The notes under the pieces: model-generated
What the model was told of the DNA's origin: nothing
The model's database searches: none
What the model saw: the letters and a program-made list of their open reading frames with translations, nothing else
Shown: positions 5,600 to 22,631 of the stretch, in pieces
Layout of the letters: each line of letters opens with the position of its first letter
Numbering within the stretch: position 1 is the first letter of the stretch
Made by a program: the position numbers and the translations under genes
Assembly (NCBI GenBank): GCA_937127125.1
Contig: CAKZLO010000052.1
Location: 1-34,921 of the forward strand
DNA length: 34,921 bases
DNA from: an uncultured Ardenticatenia bacterium
GTDB lineage: Bacteria > Chloroflexota > Anaerolineae > 4572-78 > NAK82
Reading direction: 5' to 3'

Positions 5600-6866
5600 T
5601 CTCGCCTCCCAGTATTGCTTTGACGGCTCGGTTAAGCAGGTTGAAGACGCGATTCTCCTTGAAGCCTAGCATAATGGCCAGAAGGTAGAGCGCGGCCATG
5701 TAGAGCACGTGGGTGAGCATCTCGGTATCGCTCACCTGCAAACCTACCGGTTTCATTCCCAGCACGCGCATAAAGACAAACATGCCCAAGTAAGCCATTG
5801 CGCCTAGGATCATCCCCATAAAGGGTTTGCCCAAGTAAGAGAGTGTGTGCTTGCTGTCGAAGCTGCGTTCGCGCACATGCTTGATTACGTGATAGAAGAC
5901 GGCAGCCACGCCACCTAATCCACCGAACACCAGCGCACGCAGGAATACACCCGGGTTGATAAAGAAATCTACAGCTTCACTCAGGCCGATCCACCGGAGC
6001 ACCCATGTGGGGTCGAAAACCAGGTACACTAGCACAAAGAACCAGCCCATCCCCCATAGAGTAAGTGCAAACGGTGTATGCATTTGTGTTGCACTGCGTT
6101 GCGCACGGTCGAGTCGCGCGCGCACCTGTTCTACACACCACTCGGCGCGTGGAAGCTCCTCAATCCTGCGTTGGGTCACGATGGTACGCGCTTCCATAAG
6201 CAGCTGGTGACACCAGTCCGTAATCCCTTGGCTGATACTCACTTGTTCGCGCCGGATACGTTCATATTCCGTCTCGATTGCTCTTTCGAGGGCGGCGAGC
6301 TGTTCCGCAACCTTTGTGGAACTATCTGGGGCAGATAAAACCTCGCGGGAAACGTCATCCGGCTTGGAAATCACTGGGGTAATGAGACGATCAAATTCGC
6401 ACTCTCGCTGTGGCACTGATGCATCTACAGGGGCCGACATGGGAGGACCCTGTTCCTTGGGCAGTTCGGGTGGTGGGGTAGGCAGTGGACGCATAGCTTT
6501 CACCGGTATCGGCGCAATCCATTCCTCAGTGGGCAAGCCTGATATTTCCTCGGGTGGGACAGATGGTGGCGAGGTGACTACCGCCTCCTCTTCGCCGCCC
6601 ACTGCCATATCCGCCTCTTCGCTCAGCAGTCTTTCGATCTCCGTGACTTCCAGCGGATAGCGTACGTCCCTTTCTGCGACGTGGTAACGCACTCGGGTGC
6701 TCGAATAGATGGTAGAGGTTGTCTCCTCTGCCGTAGCACGCTTACCAGGAGATGGCTTTTCTCGCTGCAATGGTGAAGCCAGCGGCTCTTGCCCTGGCTG
6801 CCGACGAGACATACCCAGTAGCTCCAGCCCTCTGTCTTTGAGACTGGTTTTTGTCCGGATCATCAC
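5571..6866 (-). CDS. Membrane protein of unknown function with coiled coil and four C-terminal helices
   Basis: 431 residues from a GTG at 6866; I do not recognise the family. Residues 1-180 are polar, Glu/Pro-rich and probably disordered (PTPPPELP near 129). Residues 185-255 form a likely coiled coil with a Cys-bearing helical segment (ITDWCHQLL, AEWCVEQVR). Four hydrophobic helices follow (about 266-284, 306-327, 347-369, 384-402), with a cytoplasmic-looking tail. A GAGGAG lies 7 bp before the ATG that is codon 2 (6863), so that ATG may be the real start. A good promoter lies upstream on the same strand. The convergent overlap with the DivIC-like gene and the domain order would suit an envelope or division scaffold, but that is only a guess. 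Confidence 0.75.
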   Translation of the reverse strand: MMIRTKTSLKDRGLELLGMSRRQPGQEPLASPLQREKPSPGKRATAEETTSTIYSSTRVRYHVAERDVRYPLEVTEIERLLSEEADMAVGGEEEAVVTSPPSVPPEEISGLPTEEWIAPIPVKAMRPLPTPPPELPKEQGPPMSAPVDASVPQRECEFDRLITPVISKPDDVSREVLSAPDSSTKVAEQLAALERAIETEYERIRREQVSISQGITDWCHQLLMEARTIVTQRRIEELPRAEWCVEQVRARLDRAQRSATQMHTPFALTLWGMGWFFVLVYLVFDPTWVLRWIGLSEAVDFFINPGVFLRALVFGGLGGVAAVFYHVIKHVRERSFDSKHTLSYLGKPFMGMILGAMAYLGMFVFMRVLGMKPVGLQVSDTEMLTHVLYMAALYLLAIMLGFKENRVFNLLNRAVKAILGGEIRRSQAEEI

Positions 6867-6956
6867 GATGCTCCTCTTCGGCTGTGTGCTTGATCACCTG
6901 ATGGAATGAGTAATCTGAATGTGTGCAGACAGGTAGGGCGCCTCACAACACATTTT

Positions 6957-6985
6957 ATTATACCATACATAACGTAATCTGTCAT
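6957..6985 (-). promoter_or_regulatory. Promoter for the unknown membrane protein gene
   Basis: On the minus strand, ATGACA (6980-6985) and TATAAT (6957-6962) are separated by 17 bp. Transcription would start near 6950, giving an untranslated leader of about 85 nt. It lies in the 166-bp gap after the nitrilase gene, so the downstream gene need not depend on that operon. Confidence 0.7.
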
Positions 6986-7032
6986 CATGCTTTACGTAAA
7001 ATGAGAGGTGATCTTATCATTTGTGATGCAGG

Positions 7033-7866
7033 TCAGAGATCGTACCCGAGTGTGGCATACGCATCCGGTCGCCTCATGCGTAATACAGGCATCTCACGCC
7101 GCCGTCGGTGCACCAGCGCGCGCTGCACTTCTGCTATAAGCACGTGGTCGCCTTCTTCGGGCGCTGCTGCCAAGACCTCTCCCCACGGTCCCACAATCAT
7201 GCTATTCCCATAGTGCCAGCGACCAGCGGCGTCACGGCCGTGTTGAGCGGCAGCCAGCACGTAGGCTTGGTTCTCGATGGCACGCGCGCGCAAAAGAATT
7301 TCCCAGTGCTGTGCGCGACCAGTTACTCGGGTGAACGCAGCTGGCACCGCGAAGGCTTCCGCGCCGGCCATAGACATCTGGCGATACATTTCAGGGAACC
7401 GCAGGTCGAAACAGAGGGAGAGACCCAGTACCAATTCGGGCAATTCTACCACACACAGAGCATCACCAGGCAGAATTGCTTGTGACTCATAGTCACTGAC
7501 GAGACCGGGTACCTGGACATCGAACAGGTGCACTTTGCGATATGTGGCGAGCAGAACACCTTTGGGGTCGAAGACGACGCTGGTGTTGTAGAAACGGCCC
7601 GCCACAGGGGAACGCTCGATCAGGCTGCCCGCATGGAGGTAGATGCTGTGCTGGCGTGCACATGCCGCCAGTCGCTCTGTGGTTGGACCGGGGATTGATT
7701 CGGCCGCTGCAGGGAAGTCCTCGTAACGTCCCAGAAAGGTGGCATACTCTGGCAGCAGCACCAGTTGAGCACCCCGCCGAGCTGCTTGTTCAATCAATCT
7801 CAGTGCGTGGGCCAGATTCTCATCACGCCCGCCCGCTGCATTTAGTTGGATCACGGCAACACGCAT
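7033..7866 (-). CDS. Nitrilase-superfamily carbon-nitrogen hydrolase (Nit-like amidase)
   Basis: 277 residues, usual length for the Nit branch of the nitrilase superfamily. The catalytic Glu-Lys-Cys triad is present: Glu40 in LLPEY, Lys111 in YRKVHLFD and Cys152 in SLCFDLRFPE. YRKVHLFD and FDLRFPE are typical of the Nit1/Nit2 group, whose members hydrolyse omega-amides such as deaminated glutathione or 2-oxoglutaramate; the exact substrate cannot be read from sequence. The gene is last in a minus-strand operon, 17 bp after the permease, with a CGGAGGT ribosome site 10 bp before its ATG. Confidence 0.87.
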   Translation of the reverse strand: MRVAVIQLNAAGGRDENLAHALRLIEQAARRGAQLVLLPEYATFLGRYEDFPAAAESIPGPTTERLAACARQHSIYLHAGSLIERSPVAGRFYNTSVVFDPKGVLLATYRKVHLFDVQVPGLVSDYESQAILPGDALCVVELPELVLGLSLCFDLRFPEMYRQMSMAGAEAFAVPAAFTRVTGRAQHWEILLRARAIENQAYVLAAAQHGRDAAGRWHYGNSMIVGPWGEVLAAAPEEGDHVLIAEVQRALVHRRRREMPVLRMRRPDAYATLGYDL

Positions 7867-7883
7867 GGGAGTTCACACCTCCG

Positions 7884-9146
7884 TCACAGGTAGCGCAGCC
7901 AGACATACAGGCTAGAAAGCACCAGAGACATGCTCGTGGTAATCAGACCATAACGAAAGAAGCGCCAGAATCGAATCGGGTGACCGCTGCGCTCGCTCAG
8001 GCTTGCCATCACCACATTAGCGGATGCGCCTACTAAAGTGGCATTTCCCCCAAGACATGCGCCAAGTGCCAGGCACCACCACAGAGGCCGGCTTGCTAAG
8101 GTATGGGTCAGGCTGTCGACAACTGGGATCATTGTAGCCGTGTAGGGTATGTTGTCCACGATGCCGGAAACTGCAGCAGACAACCACAAGATCAACATAG
8201 CTGTCAACGGAAGGTTCCCCTTCGTTATGCTCAGCGCTCCTTGTGTCAGCAGATTAAGAAGTCCGACTTGGACGACTCCTTGGACCACGATAAAAAGGCC
8301 TATGAAAAAGAGCAACGTCGTCCATTCCACTTCGCGTAGGACGCGCTGTGGGTCGACACCGCTCCAAAACAGGAGGATGGTTGCTCCACTCATTGCGATC
8401 GTCGCAGGCTCCAAATGGACAAACCCGCTGATCAGAAAGCCAATGATCACCAGACATAGGACAACCAGCGACCGGAATAATGTGCGTCGGTCGGTTATCA
8501 GGTTGCTAGCATCCAGGGAACTCACATCAGGTTGGAATCGGGCGTCTGTTTGCAGCTCTCGGCGGAACAAGAACCAGCTCAGGCCCAGAAAGGCTATCAG
8601 GATCAGGACGCTGATGGGGCCCATATGGAGCATAAAGGTGAGAAAGTCAATATCGGCTGCGCTGGCAATCAGAATGTTAGGTGGATCTCCGATCAGTGTG
8701 GCGGTGCCACCAATGTTCGAGGCAAGCACTTCGCTGATGAGAAATGGGAGAGGATCCAGGTGCAAAGTGGTAGCTGCAAACAAGGTAATCGGCACTACCA
8801 ACACGACAATGGTGACATTATCCAGAAAGGCAGAGCTTGCCGCCGTGACCAGGCACAGGATTACCAGAATGCGGTAGGGGCGACCATTGCCCAGTCGTAC
8901 TGCCTGGACAGCGATCCATTGAAAAAAACCTGTCTCTCGCAGGACAGCAGTAATGGCCATCATACCGAGCAAAAGAAAGATCACATTCCAGTCAACTGAA
9001 TGGAAAGCAACCTCTTGGCTGAGCACCCCACCAAGCACCATACATAGACCGCCCAGCATCGCTGACACTGCGCGATGCACCCGCTCGCTGACAATAAGAG
9101 CGTACGTGATGAAGAATATGGCACCGGCAAGCAACACAGGGGACAA
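7884..9146 (-). CDS. ArsB/NhaD-type (SLC13-like) anion or Na+/H+ permease
   Basis: About 420 residues with around eleven hydrophobic segments. Two inverted family repeats are visible: ASNIGGTATLIGDPPNILI in the first half and LGGNATLVGASANVVMASL in the second. These place it in the ion transporter superfamily with ArsB, NhaD, P-protein and SLC13 carriers. Substrate (Na+/H+, arsenite, dicarboxylate, sulfate or other) cannot be chosen. I prefer the TTG at 9146: it directly follows the TAG of the upstream gene and has GTGGAG 8 bp before it, which suggests translational coupling. A TTG at 9194 would add 16 residues and overlap the CBS gene by 46 bp with a poor ribosome site. Confidence 0.85.
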   Translation of the reverse strand: MSPVLLAGAIFFITYALIVSERVHRAVSAMLGGLCMVLGGVLSQEVAFHSVDWNVIFLLLGMMAITAVLRETGFFQWIAVQAVRLGNGRPYRILVILCLVTAASSAFLDNVTIVVLVVPITLFAATTLHLDPLPFLISEVLASNIGGTATLIGDPPNILIASAADIDFLTFMLHMGPISVLILIAFLGLSWFLFRRELQTDARFQPDVSSLDASNLITDRRTLFRSLVVLCLVIIGFLISGFVHLEPATIAMSGATILLFWSGVDPQRVLREVEWTTLLFFIGLFIVVQGVVQVGLLNLLTQGALSITKGNLPLTAMLILWLSAAVSGIVDNIPYTATMIPVVDSLTHTLASRPLWWCLALGACLGGNATLVGASANVVMASLSERSGHPIRFWRFFRYGLITTSMSLVLSSLYVWLRYL

Positions 9147-9148
9147 GG

Positions 9149-10036
9149 CTATGGCTCCACGATATTTTTGCCTGAGAGCGGCTCCGACTGACAACAGATA
9201 GCTACCAGCAAGGCCAACAGGCTGATGTACCCGACGATATGGTAGGTCTCGTCTACAATGGGCAGACCGGGCAGTTGGTGCTGGTGCATGCGTTTGAACG
9301 CCATCTTCACCGGATCATCATGGCGTACCCAGACGGCTGGCTTCATTACGTCTGCTGCGGTGCGCACACGGCTCCGATCGGCGAATTCGATCACACCCTC
9401 AAGGTCGGTTACTTCACTGAGGAACTCCTCAGGCATCTCATAAAAAAGCAGGGCGTCGGCCAGCTCGCGTAGAGGAAGCACTCCTACCAGCACATTGTCT
9501 TCGGAGGCCACACACACTACCTGCACATCTGGCTGTGCTGAGAGTGCACGCGGGATCTGATCCAGCGTTGTGTCACGCCGCACAATCACTGGTCGCAGGT
9601 TAAGCAAGGCTGCTACCTCTGCTGCTGACTTGTTGCGCCAAGTTATCCAGCTGGTATGGATGGCTTCGTAGGGTCGCGTGTCCATTGCGGCCGGGCGAGG
9701 TTTGTGCAATCCGAGTGCTCGTGATACCGGGAGCACCAGTAGTAACCCGCTCTCTGGTCGGTCGAACCCGCCTACCAGCCTTTCGGCCTCCGCGATCGCG
9801 CGCTCTAAGACGGCCTCATCCTCGATAGCTGCTAACAGAGTACGCCGGCGTATCTCCTCCGATTCGAACAGTCGATCAATCGCACCCAATCCGACACGTT
9901 GGAGCCACTTTTGAGTGCGATATGCTCCAGCGCTCTGCAAGATGGTCACACCTGGTACCCCGACCGATCGCCATGTATCCAGCAGGGCTGGCAATACGCG
10001 GACATCATCCAGGACAAGCAGTATCAGGTATTCCAT
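9149..10036 (-). CDS. PII-like domain fused to two CBS domains
   Basis: 295 residues. Residues 1-112 have the beta-alpha-beta repeat pattern of PII/PII-like proteins: LILLVLDD, then an amphipathic helix and VPGVTILQSAGAYR, a loop, a second helix and LLLVLPVSRALGL in the place of the PII C-terminal strand. This match is by pattern, not alignment. Two CBS motifs follow (about 146-200 and 225-280; the second, ADVMKPAVWVRHDDPVKMAF with LPGLPIVDETYHIVGYI, is clear). Both modules usually bind adenine nucleotides. Being first in an operon with a permease suggests it senses nucleotide state and controls the transporter, as GlnK does for AmtB or SbtB for SbtA. An AGGAGGT lies 14 bp before the ATG. Confidence 0.8.
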   Translation of the reverse strand: MEYLILLVLDDVRVLPALLDTWRSVGVPGVTILQSAGAYRTQKWLQRVGLGAIDRLFESEEIRRRTLLAAIEDEAVLERAIAEAERLVGGFDRPESGLLLVLPVSRALGLHKPRPAAMDTRPYEAIHTSWITWRNKSAAEVAALLNLRPVIVRRDTTLDQIPRALSAQPDVQVVCVASEDNVLVGVLPLRELADALLFYEMPEEFLSEVTDLEGVIEFADRSRVRTAADVMKPAVWVRHDDPVKMAFKRMHQHQLPGLPIVDETYHIVGYISLLALLVAICCQSEPLSGKNIVEP

Positions 10037-10169
10037 TTTGTTTTTCTCTTACCTCCTCGCTTGTCTGGAACAGCTTTCGCCCTATGCCGGGGGTGAATTC
10101 CCTGCGGCAATTCCAGGGCGGCTGTGGGTAAACAAGCCGGACTATCTCGTCGTCTACGCGTTGCGTGCT

Positions 10170-10198
10170 TTGTGCGGCTGTGATATTGTTACTACACT
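10170..10198 (+). promoter_or_regulatory. Possible promoter for dtd
   Basis: TTGTGC (10170-10175) and TACACT (10193-10198) with a 17-bp spacer would start transcription about 30 bases before the dtd ATG. Both boxes are only partial matches. The 200-bp divergent gap 10037-10236 should also hold the promoter of the CBS/permease operon, which I could not pick out. Confidence 0.35.
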
Positions 10199-10236
10199 AT
10201 GAGCATGCCACATTCCTTTCAGGGATGCAAAGACCT

Positions 10237-10686
10237 ATGCGAGCAGTCATCCAGCGGGTTCGTTATGGTTCCGTCACCGTGCCCGATCAACCTCCTCAAA
10301 TGATTGGTAATGGTTTGGTAGTCTTGATCGGCGCTACTCATAGTGACACTGAAAATGATGCTATTTTGTTAGCACGCAAGATCGCCTTCCTGCGCATCTT
10401 TGAGGATGATGCTGCTAAGATGAACCGTTCTGTGCTCGATGTACAGGGTGCTGTGCTGGTGGTGCCTCAATTTACCCTCTATGCTGACTGTAGGCATGGG
10501 CGCCGTCCCAGCTTCACTGAGGCAGCTGCTCCAGAGCGGGCCCGTGCGCTTATCGACGTTTTTATCAAGGTATTGCACTCAGAAGGGGTCGAGCATGTAG
10601 CAAATGGGTTCTTCGGCGAGCATATGTTGGTGGAAATCCACAATGATGGTCCGGTGACCATTGTGCTTGATACTGCGCTTCTTTAA
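10237..10686 (+). CDS. dtd: D-aminoacyl-tRNA deacylase
   Basis: 149 residues, the family length. It removes D-amino acids (and glycine from tRNA-Ala) mis-attached to tRNA. The N-terminus MRAVIQRVRYGSVTV, the block VPQFTLYADCRHGRRPSF and the C-terminal NDGPVTIVLDT with the cross-subunit Gly-Pro are all canonical. The ATG at 10237 starts the conserved sequence and has AGGGA 11 bp upstream; the frame is open further 5', but that part is not conserved. It is transcribed divergently from the CBS/permease operon and is followed 82 bp later by an unrelated oxidoreductase. Confidence 0.95.
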   Translation: MRAVIQRVRYGSVTVPDQPPQMIGNGLVVLIGATHSDTENDAILLARKIAFLRIFEDDAAKMNRSVLDVQGAVLVVPQFTLYADCRHGRRPSFTEAAAPERARALIDVFIKVLHSEGVEHVANGFFGEHMLVEIHNDGPVTIVLDTALL

Positions 10687-10768
10687 GGCCTGGGAAAGGT
10701 TTGAAGCGAGTCTTGGAATGTCATCAGGAGAATTTTCCCCAATCACTTACGCGTCATAGGAGAGAAGT

Positions 10769-11737
10769 ATGGAAAGACGCCAATTGGGATTCACCGATCT
10801 TCATCTGAGCACCATTGGTCTGGGGGCATGGGCCATGGGCGGTGGTGGCTATATCTTCGGTTGGGGATCTCAGGACGATACCGAATCAATTGTCACCATT
10901 CACCGCGCTCTGGACGAAGGGATCAACTGGATCGACACGGCGCCCGGTTACGGGCGTGGCCATTCAGAGGAAGTAGTGGGTAAGGCATTAGTGGGTCGCC
11001 GTCACCAGGTTTACATTGCCACCAAGTGTGGCATTCACGTCTTGCCTAGTGGGGAGCTTACTTTCCGGCTCAAGCGCGAGTCTGTGCGTCAGGAGATTGA
11101 GGACAGCTTACGGCGCCTCCGGACAGATGTGATCGACCTCTATCAGATCCATTGGCCGCGCCCCGACGAAGATATCGAAGAGGCGTGGGGTGTCATCGCT
11201 GATGCAGTTCGTGCTGGTAAGGTGCGTTATGGCGGTGTCTCCAACTTCAACATTAGCCAGATGGAACGATTGCAGTCCATTCACCCTATCGCCTCCTTGC
11301 AGCCGCCCTATAGTATGCTCAACCGTGACGTCGAATCGGAGCTGTTGTCCTATTGTGCTGCTCACAAAATCGGGGTCATCGTTTATAGCCCTATGGAACG
11401 TGGCCTGCTCACTGGCAAGATCACCCGCGAGCGCATTCAGGCGATGCCCGAGGATGATCATCGCCGGCGTTATGCACCTTTCCAGGAGCCCCAGTTGAGC
11501 GTCAACTTGCGTTTGGTCGAGCAGTTGCGCCCGATTGCCGAGCGCAACGGGAAGACACTAGCTCAGCTGGCGCTGGCATGGGTATTGCGGCGACCTGAGG
11601 TGACCGCTGCAATCGCTGGCGCAAGGCGACCCGATCAGGTAACCGAGCTGGTAGGTGCCAGCGGCTGGAAGCTGTCTGATGCTGATTTGGCAGAAATCGA
11701 TACGTTACTGGCTCAGCGTCAGCAGGCACTTGCTTAA
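10769..11737 (+). CDS. Aldo/keto reductase
   Basis: 322 residues, a TIM-barrel NADPH-dependent oxidoreductase. The catalytic tetrad is visible: Asp56 and Tyr61 in WIDTAPGYGRGHSE, Lys86 in IATKCG and His128 in LYQIHWP. VSNFN and the C-terminal TAAIAGARRPDQV block for the cofactor phosphate are present. The type resembles general stress protein 69/YhdN-like AKRs acting on aldehydes or ketones, but substrate is unknown. AGGAGAG precedes the ATG. It converges with the SorC regulator that ends the sugar operon, so a role in that catabolic route is possible but not supported by cotranscription. Confidence 0.9.
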   Translation: MERRQLGFTDLHLSTIGLGAWAMGGGGYIFGWGSQDDTESIVTIHRALDEGINWIDTAPGYGRGHSEEVVGKALVGRRHQVYIATKCGIHVLPSGELTFRLKRESVRQEIEDSLRRLRTDVIDLYQIHWPRPDEDIEEAWGVIADAVRAGKVRYGGVSNFNISQMERLQSIHPIASLQPPYSMLNRDVESELLSYCAAHKIGVIVYSPMERGLLTGKITRERIQAMPEDDHRRRYAPFQEPQLSVNLRLVEQLRPIAERNGKTLAQLALAWVLRRPEVTAAIAGARRPDQVTELVGASGWKLSDADLAEIDTLLAQRQQALA

Positions 11738-11830
11738 GTTGACGCAAGCGCGCAGATGTACTGATAAAGGCTCAATTCATGAGTGGGCTCTGCGGAATCG
11801 CAACACACGCTGACTTGAAGATGTATCATT

Positions 11831-11851
11831 ATTAGCCTATCTGAGGCTAAT
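11831..11851. terminator. Inverted repeat between convergent genes (possible terminator)
   Basis: An 8-bp perfect stem, ATTAGCCT and AGGCTAAT, with a 5-base loop overlaps the stop codon of the SorC gene and lies 94 bp after the aldo/keto reductase. Neither side has a clear T run, so this may be a weak or factor-assisted terminator. Confidence 0.35.
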
Positions 11852-12803
11852 GATGGCTGTTCAGACGCAGGATTTCAGTTGCTGCGCGTGCATCGGTGAT
11901 CAGCACATTGATGAATCCACCGCGCAGTGCGCCCAGGATTGCTGATGCCTTGGCCAGCCCCCCGGCGACTCCGACCACCTTTGGTATCTGGGAGAGCATC
12001 TGCTGATTTGCGGCGATCAGGCGTCGGTTCAAGGAGATGTCGAGCACGTGTCCCCACACATCGAATTGATGGCCAAGGACGTCGCCAACTGCTCCAACTC
12101 TGGCGAGTTCTTTGAGATCTGCATCCGTAAGGAAGCCAGCGCGGTACAAGCTGGAGAGCTCGGGATCGATGGTGCCGATACCGGTAACGGCAACCTCCAC
12201 ATGGCGAATCAGCTCCATCGTGCTGGCGATGGCTGGCTCCTGTAGAAGGGCAAGTGCGATCGCCTCGCTCTCCACCAAGGCAGGGGCGTGGAGGAAGCGA
12301 ATTGTGGCACCCAACTTCTGGGCCAGCAGGCGCGCACATTCCGGCCCGTCAACTGTGGAGTGCCCGCGCGCCACCGCTCCGAGCAGCTGGATTACCACGG
12401 CGTCGCGCAGGGGGATGTTTGTCACGTTGCGTGCCGTTTCGTACACTGCCGTGCCCCAGCCAATGCCAATGTTGATCCGGTCGTGTAGCTGTCGCTGTAG
12501 GAAGCGAGCACACAGCTCGCCTAGGTGCTGTATTAGTGTGGTGTATTGCGTGGGGGCTTCGGCCAGAACCCATGCATCTACCAGCCCAAAAGTTCTGACC
12601 AATGCTGTCCCTAGCTCGGCATCCACGTTGATCAGCTTGTTGACGCGGATCTCGACAATGCCTTCTTCGCGTGCTTCTTGGAGAAGACGGGACACGGTGG
12701 AGCGCGACAGGCCCAGGCGACGGGCAATCTCCTCTTGTGTCTTATTCTCCTCGTAATACCAGGCAGCAACTTGCTCTAACAGCTCATGGCGAGTCTGGTA
12801 CAT
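11847..12803 (-). CDS. SorC/DeoR-family sugar-responsive transcriptional regulator
   Basis: 318 residues. An N-terminal helix-turn-helix (about 20-50, KTQEEIARRLGLSRSTVSR) is followed by the SorC/CggR-type sugar-phosphate-binding domain (about 60-318) with INIGIGWGTAVYETA and the C-terminal VAGGLAKASAILGAL block. Relatives (SorC, DeoR-like LsrR, CggR) bind a phosphorylated sugar and control the operon that makes it. It is the last gene of the nine-gene minus-strand operon, 72 bp after the E2 core, so it probably autoregulates the unit through the palindromes upstream of the binding-protein gene. The likely inducer is the product of the FGGY kinase. Confidence 0.9.
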   Translation of the reverse strand: MYQTRHELLEQVAAWYYEENKTQEEIARRLGLSRSTVSRLLQEAREEGIVEIRVNKLINVDAELGTALVRTFGLVDAWVLAEAPTQYTTLIQHLGELCARFLQRQLHDRINIGIGWGTAVYETARNVTNIPLRDAVVIQLLGAVARGHSTVDGPECARLLAQKLGATIRFLHAPALVESEAIALALLQEPAIASTMELIRHVEVAVTGIGTIDPELSSLYRAGFLTDADLKELARVGAVGDVLGHQFDVWGHVLDISLNRRLIAANQQMLSQIPKVVGVAGGLAKASAILGALRGGFINVLITDARAATEILRLNSHH

Positions 12804-12875
12804 ACTTGTCGTTGCTCTAAGTCAATTACCTGGTGCTCGTCAGAGAAGAATGAGCTCTGTGTAGCATTTTTGGTC

Positions 12876-13601
12876 TTATACCTCGAGCGCAGCTTTCAAC
12901 AATTCTGCATTCTCAAGTGTTTGGCGCAGGTCGGCCATAAAGCGAGCAGCGTGTGCCCCGTCCACGATGCGGTGATCACATGACAGTGTGGCGATTATTG
13001 TTGGTGCTGCTACCACTTGATCCTGGTGTACCACTGGGCGCGATGCAACCCGGCCTACAGCTAGAATGGCAGCATCCGGAGGGCTGATAACAGCTTGAAA
13101 GGCGTCGATGTCCAGCATTCCCATATTCGAGAGGGTGAAAGTGCGGCCCGTTAGATCACCGCTTTGCAACCGGCGGGCTCGCGCGCCAGCTTCCAACGCT
13201 AACGCACGGCTAGCTATCTCAATCAGGGACATACGTTCAGTGTGATGCAGCACAGGGATGATCATCCCATCTTCTAGGCCGACCACAAAACCGAGATGAA
13301 CCGAGGCGTATTCCTCAATTCCCTCTTCTGTTAGCCGGGCGTTTAGGCGTGGATGCTGTACCAACAGCGTTGCGATGACTTTCATAAGAAGATGGGTAAG
13401 TGTCAGCCGTTGTTGTGTATGAGTCGCTCTGAGCTCACTCAGCGTTGTCTGCGCTGCTTGCATCTCTATCTCTTGTACGACGTGGAAGTGGGGGATGTCA
13501 CGCTTGCTCCGGACAACGCGCTCCATTATGGCGCGACGCATGGACGTCAATGCCACCCGTCGGGCAAGCACAGGCTGAGACACCTGCGTTTCTGCGTTCA
13601 T
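12876..13601 (-). CDS. Catalytic core of 2-oxo-acid/acetoin dehydrogenase E2, without lipoyl or E3-binding domain
   Basis: 241 residues from the ATG at 13601, covering only the acyltransferase domain of E2. The active-site block SCDHRIVDGAHAARF (His210, Asp214) and TFTLSNMGM are intact, so it should move an acyl group from lipoyl-lysine to CoA. A normal E2 begins with one or more lipoyl domains and an E3/E1-binding domain; neither is present, and the lipoyl domain is a separate gene 51 bp upstream. An in-frame TTG at 13652, directly after the lipoyl stop, would add 17 residues without family likeness; AAGGAA before 13601 supports the shorter form. Confidence 0.9.
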   Translation of the reverse strand: MNAETQVSQPVLARRVALTSMRRAIMERVVRSKRDIPHFHVVQEIEMQAAQTTLSELRATHTQQRLTLTHLLMKVIATLLVQHPRLNARLTEEGIEEYASVHLGFVVGLEDGMIIPVLHHTERMSLIEIASRALALEAGARARRLQSGDLTGRTFTLSNMGMLDIDAFQAVISPPDAAILAVGRVASRPVVHQDQVVAAPTIIATLSCDHRIVDGAHAARFMADLRQTLENAELLKAALEV

Positions 13602-13652
13602 AGGTTCCTTTCCGTTACTGTTCCAGTGTCCCGTGCCACTTGTACTCCGCAA

Positions 13653-13910
13653 TCATTCAGGCAACGATTCGTCGGGATCTGCGATATAAGCCAGCACATC
13701 CCCCACTTTGGCTGTTTCACCTGCTGGCACCTTGATGCGACGCAACACGCCCGTGCCGAGCGCCTCGACTTGGAGGACAGCTTTATCAGTCTCCACTTCA
13801 AATAACATTTCGCCCTTCTCGACGTGATCGCCTTCCTGCTTCAGCCATTGGAGTATCTTGTAGGAATCAGCTGTCTCAGTGAGTGGAGGCATAACGACCG
13901 GTGTGCTCAT
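13653..13910 (-). CDS. Free-standing lipoyl-domain protein
   Basis: 85 residues, a single biotinyl/lipoyl domain. The lipoylation site is Lys43 in EVETDKAVLQVEA, the usual ETDKA hairpin; VMPPLTETADSYKILQWLKQEGDHV is the conserved first half. It should act as the swinging arm between the E1 dimer encoded just upstream and the E2 core encoded just downstream. In the usual complex this domain is the N-terminus of E2. Here the reading frame closes after 85 codons with a normal TGA, and no fusion to the E2 core is possible in this frame. Confidence 0.92.
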   Translation of the reverse strand: MSTPVVMPPLTETADSYKILQWLKQEGDHVEKGEMLFEVETDKAVLQVEALGTGVLRRIKVPAGETAKVGDVLAYIADPDESLPE

Positions 13911-13931
13911 CTTTCTCTTTCCTTATTCAGA

Positions 13932-14963
13932 TCAGATCGATTTACAGCATAGTGTTTGTGTTGTTGCGTGCTTGGCAGCCATTTCGGGAGTGCCTATCAT
14001 TTCTTTCACTACTTGGACGATTTGGTCCACGCTCGGGACTACCTGTTTCTCCAGTTGCGAATGGGCTGGCAATGGAACGTGCAATCCACCGATGCGGCGC
14101 ACTGGAGCTGTTAACGTGTCGAATAGTCGTTCCTGCAAGCTAGCAGCAATCTCAGCACCGAATCCGCCAAATTGGCTCGCTTCGTGAATAACTACCGCCC
14201 GACGCGTCTTGAAAACTGATGCGCTAACTGTATCCATATCCAGCGGTGCCAGAGTGCGCAGATCAACAACTTCGGCACTGATCCCAGCTTGGCTCAGTTC
14301 CTGTGCTGCTGCCAGCGCTGTGTGTACCATATAAGAGTAGGCGATCAACGTGACGTTATTGCCCGGTCGCTTGATGTCTGCCACGCCCAAAGGTATAGTG
14401 TATTCTTCCTCGGGCACCTCGCCCTCTAACGCGTACAGGCCCTTGTGTTCGATGAATATCACCGGGTTATTATCCCGAATGGCACTTTTGAGCAATCCCT
14501 TAGCGTCGTAAGGGGTTGCTGGCATGACAACCTTTAGGCCGGGCACGTGGGCAAACCAAGCTTCAAGGCTTTGCGAGTGCTGGGGGCCAGCACCTCGGCC
14601 GGTACCTTGCTGTGTGCGAATAACCAAAGGAGCTATCAGTTGACCGCCAAACATGCAGTGTAGCTTGGCAGCCTGGTTGACAATCTGATCCATCGCCAGA
14701 GTGGCGAAGTCTACGTACATGATTTCGGCCACCGGGCGGCCACCTACAACAGCGGCGCCCAATGCTGCTCCGACAATAATTGCTTCGGACATTGGGGCGT
14801 CGATAATGCGCTGAGGACTGAACTCTTGCAATAGTCCTTGAGTAACAGCATAAGCGCCACCGTAGCGCCCCACGTCCTCGCCGATGACAAATACGCGCGG
14901 GTCACGCTGCATCTCTTCGCGCAGAGCTTCTCGAAGTGCCTCGCGATACCTAATCTTACGCAT
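13932..14963 (-). CDS. TPP-dependent 2-oxo-acid/acetoin dehydrogenase E1 beta subunit
   Basis: 343 residues, full length for the family. MRKIRYREALREALREEM, VFVIGEDVGRYGGAYAVTQG, DAPMSEAIIVGAALGAA and AEIMYVDFATLAMDQIVNQ are standard PdhB/AcoB/BkdB blocks. It pairs with the E1 alpha subunit encoded 11 bp upstream to bind thiamine diphosphate and transfer an acyl or hydroxyalkyl unit to lipoate. AGGTGA precedes the ATG. The last 20 residues (ATTQTLCCKSI) look unconserved. Sequence alone does not separate pyruvate, branched 2-oxo acid and acetoin enzymes; the context of a sugar kinase favours an acyloin-type substrate (inference). Confidence 0.92.
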   Translation of the reverse strand: MRKIRYREALREALREEMQRDPRVFVIGEDVGRYGGAYAVTQGLLQEFSPQRIIDAPMSEAIIVGAALGAAVVGGRPVAEIMYVDFATLAMDQIVNQAAKLHCMFGGQLIAPLVIRTQQGTGRGAGPQHSQSLEAWFAHVPGLKVVMPATPYDAKGLLKSAIRDNNPVIFIEHKGLYALEGEVPEEEYTIPLGVADIKRPGNNVTLIAYSYMVHTALAAAQELSQAGISAEVVDLRTLAPLDMDTVSASVFKTRRAVVIHEASQFGGFGAEIAASLQERLFDTLTAPVRRIGGLHVPLPAHSQLEKQVVPSVDQIVQVVKEMIGTPEMAAKHATTQTLCCKSI

Positions 14964-14974
14964 AGTTCTATCAC

Positions 14975-15943
14975 CTAGTCCTGTCGTGCGAATACATCTT
15001 CCAAGACGCTATCTAGTGTGGCTGGAGAGCTCTCTTCGGCGAAACGCACCGCATCTGCAATCGCTTCTGCCACCTTGGCTTCTATAGCGTCCACGTCCGC
15101 TTGTGTCAGAATACCCTCCTGTAACAATCGTTCCTGATAGAGGCGGATAGGATCCCGGGCGCGTTGTCTCGCTTCCTCCTCTTTGTCCCGGTAAGGGCTT
15201 GGGTCCCCACGCGAATGTCCCAGGAAACGGTAGGTTTGCGCACCGATGAGAGTGGGGCCTTCTCCGTGCCGGGCTCGCTCGATAGCCTGTAATGCTACCT
15301 GACGTACTGCCAGTACATCTTGCCCGTCCACTTCGACACCAGGCATCCCGTATGCTTCTCCCTTGCGTGCAAAAGAACGCTCAGCGGTTGCATGCGTCCA
15401 TGGCAGTGACATGGCATACTGATTGTTCTCGCATACGAAGACAATCGGTAGTTGCCACAGAGCAGCCATGTTAGCGGCTTCGTGGAATATCCCTTCCGTA
15501 AGAGCGCCCTCGCCAAAGAAAGCGACGGTCACTCGGTCGGCATTCTGCAGTTTGGACCACAGTGCTGCACCAGTTGCGATGCCTATGTGGCCCCCGACGA
15601 TGCCATTCGAACCGAGGTGACCCAGATTGATGTCTACCAAGTGCATCGAACCACCACGTCCTTTGCAATAACCTGTGGCGCGGCCCAGCAGCTCAGCGAT
15701 GATGCGGCGCAGGTCTCCGCCGCGCGCAATGATATGCCCATGCCCGCGGTGAGTGCTGGTGAGGTAATCTTGAGGTTGCATGGCTGAACACACCCCAGTG
15801 GCAACTGCCTCCTGGCCGATGCTGACGTGGCACATGCTACTGGCCAGTTTCCCCTGCAATAGCAGCTCAAGGATCTTTTCCTCAGTACGCCGGATCAGCA
15901 GCATTGTGTAGTATAAGTTGGTTAACGTTTCTCTATCTTCCAT
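14975..15943 (-). CDS. TPP-dependent 2-oxo-acid/acetoin dehydrogenase E1 alpha subunit
   Basis: 322 residues from the ATG at 15943. The thiamine diphosphate motif runs about 144-174: FFGEGALTEGIFHEAANMAA to CENNQYAM, with Glu in place of the usual Asp in GDG, a conservative change. STHRGHGHIIARG and GRGGSMHLVD are E1 alpha hallmarks, and the loop GHSRGDPSPYRDKEE would carry the active-site His. Length and style are closest to the AcoA/PdhA group. GAAGAGG lies 8 bp before this ATG and 20 bp follow the kinase stop; a GTG at 15973 would overlap the kinase gene and has a worse site. Confidence 0.92.
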   Translation of the reverse strand: MEDRETLTNLYYTMLLIRRTEEKILELLLQGKLASSMCHVSIGQEAVATGVCSAMQPQDYLTSTHRGHGHIIARGGDLRRIIAELLGRATGYCKGRGGSMHLVDINLGHLGSNGIVGGHIGIATGAALWSKLQNADRVTVAFFGEGALTEGIFHEAANMAALWQLPIVFVCENNQYAMSLPWTHATAERSFARKGEAYGMPGVEVDGQDVLAVRQVALQAIERARHGEGPTLIGAQTYRFLGHSRGDPSPYRDKEEEARQRARDPIRLYQERLLQEGILTQADVDAIEAKVAEAIADAVRFAEESSPATLDSVLEDVFARQD

Positions 15944-15962
15944 AATATTAGTATCCTCTTCC

Positions 15963-17519
15963 CTATTGAGCACGTTGTGCGATGTACCGAGTCATTTCGT
16001 GCATCAGGTCGCGCATCTGAGGATAGGTATTAATGTACTTATCCACGAAGAATCGGTAAGCCTGATGGGTAGCCGGGTTGGGCGAAATGCGCTCCGTCAC
16101 ACGTACCATCGCCTTTGAAGCAGCCGCAAGGCTTGGGTAAGCGCCACAACCGACTGAGGCACAAATGGCTGCTCCCAACACCGCCGCCGATGCACCTGCC
16201 TCGGTTAGTGATATCGGTACGTTGCTTACATCAGCATGTATCTGCATCCACAGCTTGTTCTTGGTCGGCCCACCTGAGGCGACCAGCTCTTGGGCCACGT
16301 AGCCGTGTTCACGCATTGTGCGCAGGATATGTTCTGTGCCGTAGGCGATGCCCTCGATAATGGCGCGGAACACATGGGCGGGTGTGTGGGACAGGGTAAA
16401 CCCCCAGATCATCCCTCGTGCTTCTGGGTCGACGTAGGGAGTGCGGTTGCCCTGCCAATAGTCTAGCACAATTAGACCATCGGAGCCCGGAGGAATTTTG
16501 GCAGCTTCTTCCGTCAGCAGATCATATGCGCTGACACCTAGAGCTTGGGCTTTTTGCATGTAGCTGCTAGCGAAGTTGTCACGGAACCAACGTACGACCG
16601 AACCAGTGGATATTTGACCTCCCTCCACTGTATACTGACCAGGTATGAGACAATCCGTGTAAGCACCAAAGATACCTTTGCCATGGAACTGATGTGCTGA
16701 CTGTCCCAATAGCAGATGGGACGAGCCCACGATAAAGGCCATCTTGCCGGGTTCCACCACGTTCAGCCCGAGCATAGCGATATATGCGTCTGCGCCACCC
16801 TGCGCGACCGGGATGCCAGCTCTCAGTCCCAATTCACTTGCCACGTCGGCGCGCAGCGAGCCAACCACCTCTCCCAGATCAAGAATGCGCTGTGGAAACT
16901 TCGCCAGCAGATCACCCAATCCGATCCCTTCATAGAAATCGGCAGGGAAGCCACCCGTGTTACGGTCATAGTACCAGCGGATGCTTGTGTTGTTAATGCT
17001 GCCTACCCATTCACCGGTTAGACGGTGCATAAACCAGTCGACATATTCACCTACGTAGCGAGCTCTTGCCCACACTTCTGGCTCGTTTTCCTTGACCCAG
17101 AGTGCCTTGCAGGGCATCCACTCGGCAGATACGTTGCCGTATCCGTTGTACTTGAGAGCCTTGTACCCGCTGGCTGCGATGCGTCTTGCCTGGTCGGCGG
17201 CGCGCACATCCATCCAGATGATTGCGGGACGCAGTGGTCGAAATTGTGCATCCATAAAGACTACTGTGCAGCTGGTGAAATCACCACTGATACCTACGAT
17301 AGAATGTGGGTCCAGGCCAGACTTCTCGACTGTACCTCGCACGGCGCTGACTATGGCTGACCACCACTCATTCGGGTTCTGCTCTGCCCACCCCGGATGA
17401 GCATGGTATACCGCGTAAGGAACAGCCTCTGAAGCGATCATCTTCCCTTGCGGGTCAAAGATAGCTGCACGCACGCTCTCCGTGCCACAGTCGATGCCAA
17501 TGAAGTACTGATCTGCCAC
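15963..17519 (-). CDS. FGGY-family carbohydrate kinase (pentulose-kinase type)
   Basis: 518 residues, the normal length. The N-terminal phosphate-binding motif GIDCGTESVRAAIFD, the catalytic Asp in GGADAYIAMLG, and the C-terminal FGGY signature region ASGGPTKNKLWMQIHAD are present. GTESVRAAIFD and the 518-residue size recall the ribulokinase/pentulokinase branch, but LsrK, erythritol and xylulose kinases share the fold, so the substrate is open. It follows the ABC transporter genes and precedes the E1 genes, so the phosphorylated product is likely the compound cleaved or sensed by the rest of the operon. GTG start with AGGAGGG close by. Confidence 0.92.
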   Translation of the reverse strand: MADQYFIGIDCGTESVRAAIFDPQGKMIASEAVPYAVYHAHPGWAEQNPNEWWSAIVSAVRGTVEKSGLDPHSIVGISGDFTSCTVVFMDAQFRPLRPAIIWMDVRAADQARRIAASGYKALKYNGYGNVSAEWMPCKALWVKENEPEVWARARYVGEYVDWFMHRLTGEWVGSINNTSIRWYYDRNTGGFPADFYEGIGLGDLLAKFPQRILDLGEVVGSLRADVASELGLRAGIPVAQGGADAYIAMLGLNVVEPGKMAFIVGSSHLLLGQSAHQFHGKGIFGAYTDCLIPGQYTVEGGQISTGSVVRWFRDNFASSYMQKAQALGVSAYDLLTEEAAKIPPGSDGLIVLDYWQGNRTPYVDPEARGMIWGFTLSHTPAHVFRAIIEGIAYGTEHILRTMREHGYVAQELVASGGPTKNKLWMQIHADVSNVPISLTEAGASAAVLGAAICASVGCGAYPSLAAASKAMVRVTERISPNPATHQAYRFFVDKYINTYPQMRDLMHEMTRYIAQRAQ

Positions 17520-17572
17520 GGGGTCCCTCCTAGTACATAGGGTACATGTATCTTCTGGGTATAGGATAACGA

Positions 17573-18565
17573 TTAGAAGAAACGAATCTCCTCGCGTCGC
17601 ACAGCTAGTAGCACTGCGAAGATCAGGATGCCTCCACGTACCATGTTCTGCAGGTAGAAAGGAGCTCCTACCATGTTGAGCCCATTGTTGATAATGCCCA
17701 GCGTCAGCACACCAACTAGAGTGCCCAGGATGTTGGCCTGACCCCGTTTAATGGTAGTCATACCTAGGAACACTGCTGCCAGCGCGTCCATTGTGTAGGG
17801 GTCGGCGCCTTGGGGTTGGGCAGATCCCAAGTACGAAGTTAGCATGACACCTGCTAGAGCGGCAAAGAAGCCGCTGCATATCAACCCCAAGAAGCGATAT
17901 CGCTCAGTGTTGATACCGCTCAATTTGGCAGCTTTGGGATTGGCACCTGTTGCGATAACATAGCGCCCGGCACGCGTCTTATTCAGGAAGAGGTACTGGA
18001 CCAGCAACACTGCCAAGGCAAGAATGACAGCAAATGGAATGCCCGCAATGAATCCCTGACCAATAAACTTGAAAGTAGCTGGCATTTGTCCATAGATGGA
18101 GTCACCGCCAGCGTATGCAAAGTTCACCCCTAGCGCAATGGAGGAGCCTCCGATCGTAGCGATCAAGGATGGCACGCGAAAAACGGTGACAATGAAACCG
18201 AACAACGTTCCAAAAGCTGCTCCAGACAACAATGCAACGATAAGTGCTATCTCGAAGCTTTGTTCCTGGCGCACCATCAAACCAGCAACCAGAATACCCG
18301 CCAGGCTGGCGACTGTCCCGACGGACAGGTCGAACTCGCCGGCAGCCACACAAATGGTCAGACCACCCGCAACTACCGCCAGTGTGGAAACCTGGCGCAG
18401 GATATTGAGCAGGTTACGGCTGCTCACAAAGCGGCTTTCAAGAACCCAAAACGCCACGAAGACTGCCACCAATGCGAGCACAGTTCCATAGCGGGCAATG
18501 AAATCATCCCAATCAATCGCAGGTGACTTCAGCCTGCTGGTTGTTGGAGCTTGCTCTATCTTCAT
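17573..18565 (-). CDS. RbsC-type sugar ABC transporter permease
   Basis: 330 residues with about nine or ten hydrophobic helices, belonging to the branched-chain/ribose permease superfamily (BPD_transp_2). AAGEFDLSVGTVASLAG is the equivalent of the GGIDLSVGS block, and GANPKAAKLSGI marks the cytoplasmic coupling loop. One permease gene is present, so it should form a homodimer as in ribose and xylose systems, unlike the two permeases of Lsr. CAGGAGG lies just before the ATG. It is transcribed between the ATPase and the kinase. Confidence 0.93.
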   Translation of the reverse strand: MKIEQAPTTSRLKSPAIDWDDFIARYGTVLALVAVFVAFWVLESRFVSSRNLLNILRQVSTLAVVAGGLTICVAAGEFDLSVGTVASLAGILVAGLMVRQEQSFEIALIVALLSGAAFGTLFGFIVTVFRVPSLIATIGGSSIALGVNFAYAGGDSIYGQMPATFKFIGQGFIAGIPFAVILALAVLLVQYLFLNKTRAGRYVIATGANPKAAKLSGINTERYRFLGLICSGFFAALAGVMLTSYLGSAQPQGADPYTMDALAAVFLGMTTIKRGQANILGTLVGVLTLGIINNGLNMVGAPFYLQNMVRGGILIFAVLLAVRREEIRFF

Positions 18566-18611
18566 AGCAATTTCCTCCTGCTATTACGTCCAGGCATTCT
18601 GGACGTTGATC

Positions 18612-20123
18612 TCATCCAATCACTGTCTCTGTTGCGCCCAGCATGTGTTGCAGCACAAGTTCTTGAGTGAAATCAGCCCGTTTGCCTGAAGAGACTACTG
18701 TGCCAGCACGCATGATGTAAATACGATCCGCCAGCACCATCAGCTCTTCTAGGTCTGAGGTGGCTACCACGACACCTGCTCCCTGTGCAGCAAGGCGACG
18801 AATAATGTTCCACATCTCAGCACGGGTGCCCACGTCAATACCTTCCGTTGGCTCGTCAAGCAGGAAGATTTTTTCTCCGACGTCTTCACTGGCAGCTAGC
18901 CATTTACCAAACACCACTTTCTGCTTGTTGCCACCGCTCAGATTGCCCACATTCGTACGTAGGCTCGGGGTCACGATGCTCAGCCGCCTCACAACGTCGT
19001 TAGCCACTTGCTGAAGGCCGCGTTCAGACACAATCCCACCTGGAGAGTACTGGGGCAGGCACGCCGCTGTGAGATTCTCTAATACATCTAGGCGCATGAG
19101 AAGTCCCTTTTCCATACGTTTTTCCGGCACCAGAATGAGCCCATATTGGATAGCCTGTTGCGGCGTATGAATGCGCTTGGGCTCCCCTCGAACCAGAATT
19201 GTGCCGTTACGCACGGATCGGTAACCAACCAGGCTTTCCAGCAATTCGGTGCGGCCTGCTCCAACGACGCCAGCCAAACCCACAACTTCTCCCGCATGGA
19301 CCTCCAGTGAGACCTCGTAGAAGCCTTCGCCCGACAGGTTGCGCACTTCTAGCAGTACTGGCTTCCCGCTGGCATCCACATACTCGGAACTTGTCTCAGC
19401 GATTTCGCGTCCTACAATCAACCGCGGCACGTCTTCTGGCTTGTAGGCGGCAATGGGGCCTGTGCTGACCACCTTGCCGTCGCGCAATATAGTAATATGA
19501 TCAGCTATCTCGAAGACTTCATCCAAGTGATGCGAGACGAAGATAATCCCTACGTCTCGTTCTTTGAAACGACGTAACGTATCAAACAGGTGTTCTGTCT
19601 CCCCTGCCGATAGAGACGCCGTGGGCTCATCCAGGACAATTGCTTTGGGTGAGGTGCGTAGGGCGCGCGCGATGTCCACCAACTGCTGCTGACCTGCACC
19701 GAGCTTTTCGACGTCAGCATCGATGTCCAGATCGCTGATACCCAGGCTTTCTAGTAGCTCGCGGGCACGCTGACGTAATAATTGATTGTTAATGATACCT
19801 AGTTGTGATGGCTCGATACCGAGCAAGATGTTCTCGGCGACTGATAGATGACGAATGAGTGTGCGTTCCTGATGGACGACTACGATGCCATGTTGTGAGG
19901 CGTCGCGCGCGTGGCTTAGATGAAGCGGCTGACCGTCGAGAAAAATAGAGCCACGATCAGGTTTTTCTGCTCCTGCGATGATCTTGACCAAAGTGGATTT
20001 GCCGGCTCCATTCATCCCCACCAAAGCATGGATTTGGGCGCGTTCGAGGGTGAAATCCACGTGATCAAGTGCTCGCACACCCGGGTAAGTCTTGACAATA
20101 TCACGTGCTTCTAGAAGTGCCAT
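18612..20123 (-). CDS. RbsA/MglA-type sugar ABC transporter ATPase (two nucleotide-binding domains)
   Basis: 503 residues from the ATG at 20123. The first domain has Walker A GMNGAGKSTLVK, a variant signature GAGQQQLVDIARAL and Walker B AIVLDEPTAS. The second has the degenerate Walker A GVVGAGRTELLE typical of this family, signature LSGGNKQKVVFGKW and Walker B IFLLDEPTEG. It powers uptake with the adjacent permease and binding protein. An ATG at 20168 would add 15 residues, but that stretch falls in a large intergenic stem-loop (20153-20188) and GGAGG sits about 11 bp before 20123, so I take the shorter form. A short insertion (SEDVGEK) precedes the second Walker B. Confidence 0.92.
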   Translation of the reverse strand: MALLEARDIVKTYPGVRALDHVDFTLERAQIHALVGMNGAGKSTLVKIIAGAEKPDRGSIFLDGQPLHLSHARDASQHGIVVVHQERTLIRHLSVAENILLGIEPSQLGIINNQLLRQRARELLESLGISDLDIDADVEKLGAGQQQLVDIARALRTSPKAIVLDEPTASLSAGETEHLFDTLRRFKERDVGIIFVSHHLDEVFEIADHITILRDGKVVSTGPIAAYKPEDVPRLIVGREIAETSSEYVDASGKPVLLEVRNLSGEGFYEVSLEVHAGEVVGLAGVVGAGRTELLESLVGYRSVRNGTILVRGEPKRIHTPQQAIQYGLILVPEKRMEKGLLMRLDVLENLTAACLPQYSPGGIVSERGLQQVANDVVRRLSIVTPSLRTNVGNLSGGNKQKVVFGKWLAASEDVGEKIFLLDEPTEGIDVGTRAEMWNIIRRLAAQGAGVVVATSDLEELMVLADRIYIMRAGTVVSSGKRADFTQELVLQHMLGATETVIG

Positions 20124-20152
20124 TTCTGAGCTGGCCTCCAAAGCGTACGAAA

Positions 20153-20188
20153 CGGTCGCCGCCAACATTATAAGTTGGCAGGCGACCG
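20153..20188 (-). other. Large stem-loop between binding-protein and ATPase genes
   Basis: CGGTCGCC-GCCAAC (20153-20166) pairs with GTTGGC-A-GGCGACCG (20174-20188) around a 7-base loop, giving a 14-bp stem with one bulged base. It lies 55 bp after the binding-protein stop. No T run follows, so partial termination or 3' protection of the binding-protein message (as at malE-malF) is more likely than full termination. It would let the binding protein be made in excess over the membrane parts. Confidence 0.7.
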
Positions 20189-20243
20189 CTCGCTAATCAG
20201 TAACTGGACATATCTACCTACAAAGTGACATGCTTATGCCAGC

Positions 20244-21338
20244 TTACTCCTTGACCATCGCCTGCTCGAAGAAGAGCTGATAGAAGTCCACTGTCTCCCA
20301 CGGCATCTTGCCCTCAGGTGGCATGTTAACGCCCTTGACGATGAACGGCGCGGGGAAGTCCACTTGAGGCACAGGGACCACCTCCTTGGCAGGTCGCCCT
20401 TTGCCCACGATCTCGTCCACGAAGGAACCGGCCAAAGCACCCCATAGCTCAAATGCCTGTGCTGGCGTGGCGACCATCGGGTAGTCTGGATTGCGCATTT
20501 CCTCTACTGCAGGGGGATGTCCGTCCGCACCGACAACAAACGCATCCTTGACGGTCATACCTTGGCTCACAAGCGCCTGGGAAGCAGCCTGCGCAGGTTC
20601 ATCCCATGGACACCAAATGGCATCGATATCTTCGCCGTAGCGGTTGATCCAGTCGTTCACTGTGTTGAGAGTGGTTTCGAAGAAGCCTTCGTACTGGATA
20701 ACTTGGTCGGCCAACACCTTGATGTTCTCGTTCTCCGAGAGCACTGCATCACGCACCTTGCCCCGTTTGCGCGTTCCATGATGGAAATTGGCCGTGATCG
20801 TGCAAATGTTGGCCTCGGTCTTACCCTCGCCCAGCAGGCGCTGTACCAGGTAGGAGGTCATATGAGAGCCCATCACATAGTTGTTGGAAGCGATGTCGCA
20901 GATAGCAGGCGGGTAGTAACCCGAGTCTACAGATAGCATAGGAATGCCTGCCTTGGCAACTGCCTGTAGAGCCCCTTGAGCAGCTGTCAGCGTCCCGAAG
21001 GTGACAATAATAGCGTCAACACCTCGAGACACAGCATCTTCAATTGTGGCAGATAGCTGGCCAGGATCACCCTTTGCATCGGTTACGGTGACATCCCAAG
21101 GAAGACCCGATGCCTTTAGCCAGTTCTCGAAACCTGCTTTGACACGCTGATTGCTTTGAGCGGAGAGCTGCTGGCACAGATAGGCGATTTTTAGCTCCTT
21201 CTTCTGACGTGGCACATCAGGTCGTACATGGGCGAAGGGGTTCCTGGCGAATACCGAGGTCACGGAACCAGAGAAAGCCAAACCTGCGGCACCTAGTGCA
21301 CTGGCCACCAGAAATTCACGACGTGTTACTTTTGACAT
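20244..21338 (-). CDS. Sugar ABC transporter substrate-binding protein (RbsB-like, Tat signal)
   Basis: 364 residues. The N-terminus has a twin-arginine signal, TRREFLVASALGAAGLAFSG, so it is probably exported folded. The mature part is a ribose/galactose-binding (Peripla_BP_4) fold: KIAYLCQQLS, DAIIVTFGTLTAAQ, AVAKAGIPMLSVDSGYY and DAFVVGADGHPP are the expected strands and loops. No lipobox is evident; the tether, if any, may be an uncleaved signal. It is the first gene of the sugar operon, with AAAGGGGG before the ATG, a long leader and a strong promoter. The ligand cannot be read from sequence; the family covers pentoses, hexoses, polyols and AI-2. Confidence 0.92.
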   Translation of the reverse strand: MSKVTRREFLVASALGAAGLAFSGSVTSVFARNPFAHVRPDVPRQKKELKIAYLCQQLSAQSNQRVKAGFENWLKASGLPWDVTVTDAKGDPGQLSATIEDAVSRGVDAIIVTFGTLTAAQGALQAVAKAGIPMLSVDSGYYPPAICDIASNNYVMGSHMTSYLVQRLLGEGKTEANICTITANFHHGTRKRGKVRDAVLSENENIKVLADQVIQYEGFFETTLNTVNDWINRYGEDIDAIWCPWDEPAQAASQALVSQGMTVKDAFVVGADGHPPAVEEMRNPDYPMVATPAQAFELWGALAGSFVDEIVGKGRPAKEVVPVPQVDFPAPFIVKGVNMPPEGKMPWETVDFYQLFFEQAMVKE

Positions 21339-21603: not shown

Positions 21604-21633
21604 AGTATAACACTTTGGTTGCACATATGTCAA
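21604..21633 (-). promoter_or_regulatory. Promoter of the nine-gene sugar/dehydrogenase operon
   Basis: On the minus strand a perfect TTGACA (21628-21633) and TATACT (21604-21609) are 18 bp apart. This is the only strong promoter-like pair I found in the 426-bp gap between the RodZ-like gene and the binding-protein gene. Two palindromes overlap or flank it. Confidence 0.72.
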
Positions 21634-21651
21634 TGATATCAACAAATGTGC
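21621..21651. promoter_or_regulatory. Imperfect palindrome over the -35 box (candidate operator)
   Basis: GCACAT (21621-21626) and ATGTGC (21646-21651) form an inverted pair around TGATATCA (21634-21641), itself a perfect palindrome. They cover the -35 box. The motif ATATCAA (21636-21642) recurs inverted as TTGATAT at 21699-21705, 56 bp away in an AT-rich stretch, which could allow looping by a tetrameric SorC-type regulator. Confidence 0.4.
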
Positions 21652-22592: not shown

Positions 22593-22631
22593 TCTTAGTT
22601 CACCTCTATCTATCTATACCGGCAGATTTTT

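Follow-up and report, generated by a model that had tools for sequence, protein, structure and literature searches.

The window analysed here, a stretch of 34,921 nucleotides from an uncultured Ardenticatenia bacterium, carries on its minus strand a gene cluster in the order binding protein, ATPase, permease, FGGY kinase, E1 alpha, E1 beta, lipoyl protein, core and regulator. Within this cluster the E2 component of a dehydrogenase is divided between two ORFs, a free lipoyl protein and a catalytic core, both lacking a peripheral-subunit-binding domain (PSBD). The features of the locus are the following:

20244..21338, minus strand: probable substrate-binding protein of the transporter, by position and secretion-type N-terminus
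18612..20168, minus strand: monosaccharide ABC transporter ATPase; nearest NCBIfam model AraG, 473 bits
17573..18565, minus strand: monosaccharide ABC transporter permease; BPD_transp_2, 154.8 bits
15963..17519, minus strand: FGGY carbohydrate kinase; FGGY_N and FGGY_C (Pfam)
14975..15973, minus strand: E1 alpha subunit; E1_dh 284.6 bits; TIGR03182 363.6 bits, under its cut-off of 393.85
13932..14963, minus strand: E1 beta subunit; Transket_pyr and Transketolase_C (Pfam); NF006667 411.5 bits, above its cut-off
13653..13910, minus strand: free lipoyl protein, 85 aa, ATG start, TGA stop; Pfam Biotin_lipoyl 65.5 bits, residues 5-76
13782..13784, minus strand: codon of K43, the predicted lipoylated lysine in ETDKA, read from the sequence and invariant among the aligned free lipoyl proteins
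13602..13655, minus strand: TGA (13653-13655) and 51-nt intergenic gap, with the RBS-like GGAAAGGA preceding the core
12876..13601, minus strand: E2 catalytic core, 241 aa, without lipoyl domain and without PSBD; ATG at 13601
12972..12974, minus strand: codon of the catalytic histidine H210 (DHRIVDG), invariant column
12960..12962, minus strand: codon of the partner aspartate D214 (DHRIVDG), invariant column
11847..12803, minus strand: SorC/LsrR/DeoR-type sugar-responsive regulator; Sugar-bind 217.3 bits; adjoins the pair also in the two closest relatives (L019 and L020, below)

The E2 is encoded as two proteins without a PSBD

The earlier note on this DNA had described a lipoyl domain that ends with its own stop after 85 codons and a core of about 241 residues that begins almost at the catalytic domain, and both statements agree with our annotation. 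The core matches the Pfam profile 2-oxoacid_dh (PF00198) with 226.7 bits from residue 14 to 235, covering profile positions 5-230 of 232, and it contains the DHRxxDG catalytic motif, whose D, H, R, D and G columns are invariant in the alignment. Solved structures of E2 cores match it, the best being 1b5s, and by Pfam it is a separate ORF without an E1 domain. Each of the two genes is preceded by its own purine-rich RBS-like sequence.

The absence of a PSBD from both proteins, also claimed in the earlier note, was borne out by profile search: E3_binding (PF02817) gave no match at E<=1 in the lipoyl protein, in the core or in the extended 258-aa frame, and neither protein has the spare length of roughly 35 residues that the domain needs. 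A cryptic PSBD in the lipoyl protein or the core was rejected for lack of a Pfam match. Pfam likewise found no PSBD or added domain in the E1 subunits, and when the whole genome was searched with PF02817 the domain was present solely on contigs other than that of the window. AlphaFold single-chain models, built on shallow alignments of 5 rows for the core and 3 for the lipoyl protein, reached a mean pLDDT of 38 and 49, respectively.

The lipoyl and core ORFs share a common frame with a sole TGA between them, the intervening 17 codons being open, so that a sequencing error had to be ruled out. In the closest relatives, Ardenticatenia bacterium Nak82 (L019) and Anaerolineae bacterium SKYB15 (L020), which have the same gene order and a protein identity of 81-94%, the lipoyl gene ends with TAA and TAG, respectively, in place of the TGA of the window, and the gap to the core measures 55 and 53 nt as against 51 nt. 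Since 55 and 53 are no multiples of three, these gaps are not readable in frame. Among the window and its relatives dN/dS was 0.01-0.07 for both genes where calculable, at dS about 1 or more, with 0.01-0.04 for the lipoyl gene where calculable, and the intergenic gap is poorly conserved save for the stretch directly before the start codon of the core. Purifying selection on the two genes is strong. Sequencing error or readthrough was rejected on the strength of the different stops and frames and of the low dN/dS, and the split thus withstood the check that the earlier note had named.

Genes for lipoylation and for E3 lie elsewhere in the genome

The earlier note had pointed to an E3 and a lipoate ligase as genes to be looked for, and an E3 and a protein of the lipoate-ligase family were found in the source genome, which is 95% complete. 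One E3 scored above the family cut-off; it lies on contig C65, outside the window's cluster. As it is not co-encoded with the free lipoyl protein, an E3 from elsewhere in the genome must serve this protein. Six ordinary E2s with lipoyl domain, PSBD and core were identified, all on other contigs, and a true GcvH is found on contig C14. For lipoylation the genome encodes LipA and one LplA/LipM-like protein of the lipoate-ligase family, while a second PF03099 match looks, from its sequence, like a biotin ligase. With these genes present, and with K43 of the lipoyl protein standing in a DKA context (ETDKA), the free lipoyl protein is predicted to be lipoylated.

The split pair lies in a sugar transport and kinase context

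The FGGY kinase has ribulokinase and xylulokinase as its nearest NCBIfam models, under their cut-offs, and the ribulokinase 3qdk as its nearest solved structure; the binding protein at 20244..21338 gave no NCBIfam match at E<=1e-15. A transporter and/or kinase, plus the regulator, flank the split pair in 3 out of 3 close genomes. The best family matches of the E1 and lipoyl proteins are the pyruvate/acetoin dehydrogenase families. The combination of transporter, kinase and E1 suggests a phosphorylated ketose as the most likely substrate. The earlier note had reported neither this sugar context, nor that the architecture recurs in other phyla, nor the single TGA in one common frame.

Split pairs recur in Chloroflexota and on plasmids of other phyla

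The split pair was also found in homologous clusters, as the earlier note had suggested looking for. We surveyed 400 Chloroflexota genomes for short, PSBD-less cores next to a free lipoyl ORF, and obtained, beyond the window, at least 10 loci in at least 9 further genomes, belonging to two coded families; the absence of the PSBD was verified by Pfam in the 3 cores of these loci that were scanned. Short cores starting at contig ends (L063, L065) and loci with a PSBD match (L036/L064 and L046) were left out of the count. Two settings deserve mention in their own right. Locus L053 (G058:C73:78000-86345) encodes E1 alpha and beta with a free lipoyl ORF, followed by an E1 alpha-beta fusion, a second free lipoyl ORF and a single bare E2 core, and here two E1s may share one core. 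In L058-L061 (coded family f42, genomes of about 1.1-1.2 Mb) no E1 gene was recognised near the split pair, whose core is the sole E2 match above the search threshold in those small genomes.

Outside the Chloroflexota, the Arthrobacter plasmid NZ_CP084551.1 (L075) carries a fused E1, FGGY kinases, a sugar-binding regulator and a sugar ABC transporter, together with an 85-aa lipoyl protein 50% identical to that of the window; an E3 (lpdA) and a 228-aa core lie toward the opposite end of the record. In the annotation of L075:2847-4642 the genes for the lipoyl protein and an FGGY kinase share 115 nt; the start given for the kinase is probably too early. The plasmid NZ_OZ000533.1 (L092) of Shinella sp. 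WSC3-e encodes E1 alpha, E1 beta, an 80-aa lipoyl protein and a 225-aa core, along with GlpD, a class II aldolase, an ABC transporter and an FGGY kinase, and also a divergent regulator, a second kinase and lipA. This sugar cluster (5542-22739) includes an iron-containing ADH as well, and could offer a cultivable model of the split system. The kinases of the window, Arthrobacter and Shinella sugar clusters share only about 30% identity, and no significant alignment was obtained between the binding protein of the window and that of Arthrobacter or Shinella, suggesting that the three clusters have their logic in common and perhaps not their substrate.

A tree built from 64 E2 cores has split cores at three positions, occupied by the clade of the window, the pair from Arthrobacter and Shinella, and the remaining Chloroflexota splits. 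The AU test nevertheless did not reject one origin, with p 0.28 when all splits were taken and 0.22 for those in sugar clusters. The branching of the E1 tree, which comprised the fetched loci only and not the window's own E1, was not resolved. The closest fused E2 relatives are found in Roseovarius and Rhizobium clusters of a different context, with enoyl-CoA hydratase and acyl-CoA dehydrogenase. On Tritonibacter, Phaeobacter and Pacificitalea plasmids (L076, L077, L094) a lipoyl plus PSBD-like protein stands beside a separate E2; in our reading of the sequences the former appears to have an E2-like tail, and the pairing would resemble that of an E3-binding protein, in bacteria.

Discussion

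The reading we favour, to which we give a probability of roughly 0.6, is that the cluster encodes a TPP/lipoate dehydrogenase for a ketone derived from sugar, with a split E2 whose lipoyl protein would shuttle among E1, the core and a common E3. The E1 alpha/beta enzyme would reductively acylate the 85-aa lipoylated protein, a putative diffusible carrier that would then hand the acyl group to CoA on the bare E2 core and be reoxidised by the only dihydrolipoamide dehydrogenase recognised in the cell, an enzyme that would be common to the ordinary complexes and probably to the glycine cleavage system. E1 and E3 would not be tethered by a PSBD, and a stable complex would probably not be formed. 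Most likely an imported, phosphorylated ketose would be cleaved to an acyl-CoA and a sugar-phosphate fragment; the identity of this ketose is a matter of speculation; a 1-deoxyketose would lead to acetyl-CoA, for instance, and a pentulose to glycolyl-CoA.

E1, E2 cores and E3 all accept isolated lipoyl domains as substrates, and GcvH needs no PSBD to meet E3, which oxidises free lipoyl proteins in glycine cleavage. By analogy with these precedents a diffusible carrier would be the simplest reading, and of the two modes of assembly that the earlier note had offered it is more likely than a loose complex. Counting against a free carrier, E1, E3 or the core may possess a docking motif that is not recognised. 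Counting further against the favoured reading, the low kinase identity and the unaligned binding protein give no support to a common substrate of the three sugar clusters, and E1 alpha falls under its family cut-off and yields no substrate prediction.

An acetoin or ordinary 2-oxoacid dehydrogenase, in which only the domain split would be unusual and the neighbouring sugar genes incidental, is possible, if on the unlikely side: it would accord with the family matches of the E1 and lipoyl proteins, but each of the three close genomes has the transporter and/or kinase and the regulator beside the pair, and genes of these types recur on the Arthrobacter and Shinella plasmids. We consider it unlikely that E1, the lipoyl protein, the core and E3 dock via surfaces other than a PSBD into a conventional complex, with channelling in the particle and a lipoyl protein that is not free. 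The E1 beta, lipoyl and core genes are indeed adjacent with short gaps, and other clusters, with the PSBD retained, redistribute domains among subunits, but here Pfam recognises neither a PSBD nor an added domain in the E1 subunits, the lipoyl protein or the core, and the E3 gene lies elsewhere in the genome. Lower still is the probability that the ordinary E2 complexes provide a scaffold, lending the PSBD and E3 of another complex to the E1 or to the free lipoyl protein, in the way that Corynebacterium OdhA works with AceF (PMC7568260). Six E2s with lipoyl domain, PSBD and core and a single E3 would be at hand for this, but the window supplies its own lipoyl protein and its own intact core, catalytic motif included, and purifying selection on both is strong. 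An artefact or a nonsense mutation of recent date, with the TGA interrupting a fused E2 or being read through, is hardly credible as the source of the split in spite of the common frame with its 17 open codons, given the TAA and TAG stops, the out-of-frame gaps and the low dN/dS described above, and a fused product would still be without a PSBD.

Literature searches, partial in coverage, yielded no description of a free lipoyl protein with a free PSBD-less core, and nothing on point for a split E2 or for a cluster of an FGGY kinase with an E1. In the Arthrobacter and Shinella records such genes already carry names given by automatic pipelines, with no comment attached, and the terms 'biotin/lipoyl-containing protein' and '2-oxo acid dehydrogenase subunit E2' hide a probable uncharacterised sugar catabolic route. 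In the textbook view, channelling in these complexes rests on covalent tethering of the lipoyl arm and docking by the PSBD; a conserved natural system without either would allow a direct test of how much tethering matters. As a tentative and rather doubtful generalisation, several phyla could have sugar-cleaving dehydrogenases of a common class, represented by the split pairs: a TPP enzyme would split a phosphorylated ketose, and a free lipoyl protein would ferry the acyl group to CoA. If this were true, acyl-CoA, NADH and a sugar-phosphate fragment would be produced directly, and with 1-deoxyxylulose 5-phosphate as the ketose, cleavage would give acetyl-CoA and glyceraldehyde 3-phosphate.

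Comparison with known systems

The window cluster shares with the 2-oxoacid and acetoin dehydrogenase complexes the E1 family, the E2 catalytic domain with DHRxxDG, the lipoyl domain family and the lysine predicted to be modified; unlike them, it has its E2 as two PSBD-less proteins and no E3 gene. Unlike in a canonical E2, the N-terminal lipoyl domain is not on the core polypeptide in the window, L019 and L020. The AcoC model NF011457 (372 positions, 307-bit cut-off) was not reached, the lipoyl part alone aligning with 76.3 bits to model positions 3-82, and the PF00198 core of the window gave no match to it.

In its proposed logic, that of a small diffusible lipoyl carrier reoxidised by a common E3, the system would resemble GcvH, but the window domain is of the E2 lipoyl type, with no GCV_H (PF01597) match at E<=1, and its partner is a CoA acyltransferase core. 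LbpA of sulfur oxidation, a GcvH-like protein with mostly two conserved cysteines that serves an Hdr-like complex (PMC6067878), is similarly a stand-alone protein with a single lipoyl domain working with enzymes encoded nearby, whereas the window protein is cysteine-free, has no GCV_H match and is accompanied by E1 and an E2 core. Single-domain archaeal lipoyl proteins form a known class (PMC3904984).

In Corynebacterium OdhA an E2 acyltransferase domain is fused to E1o (PMC7568260), so that, as in the window, an E2 catalytic domain is found apart from the E2 protein carrying the PSBD; the window core differs in being free of E1 and in having its own lipoyl protein. The C. difficile plasmid NZ_CP033217.1 (L093, 1643-7593) shows a different redistribution of domains, with a SorC-type regulator, E1 alpha and beta, an E2 with PSBD only and a lipoyl-bearing E3: it resembles the window in an E2 without its own lipoyl domain, and differs in that the PSBD is retained on E2 and the lipoyl domain is placed on E3.
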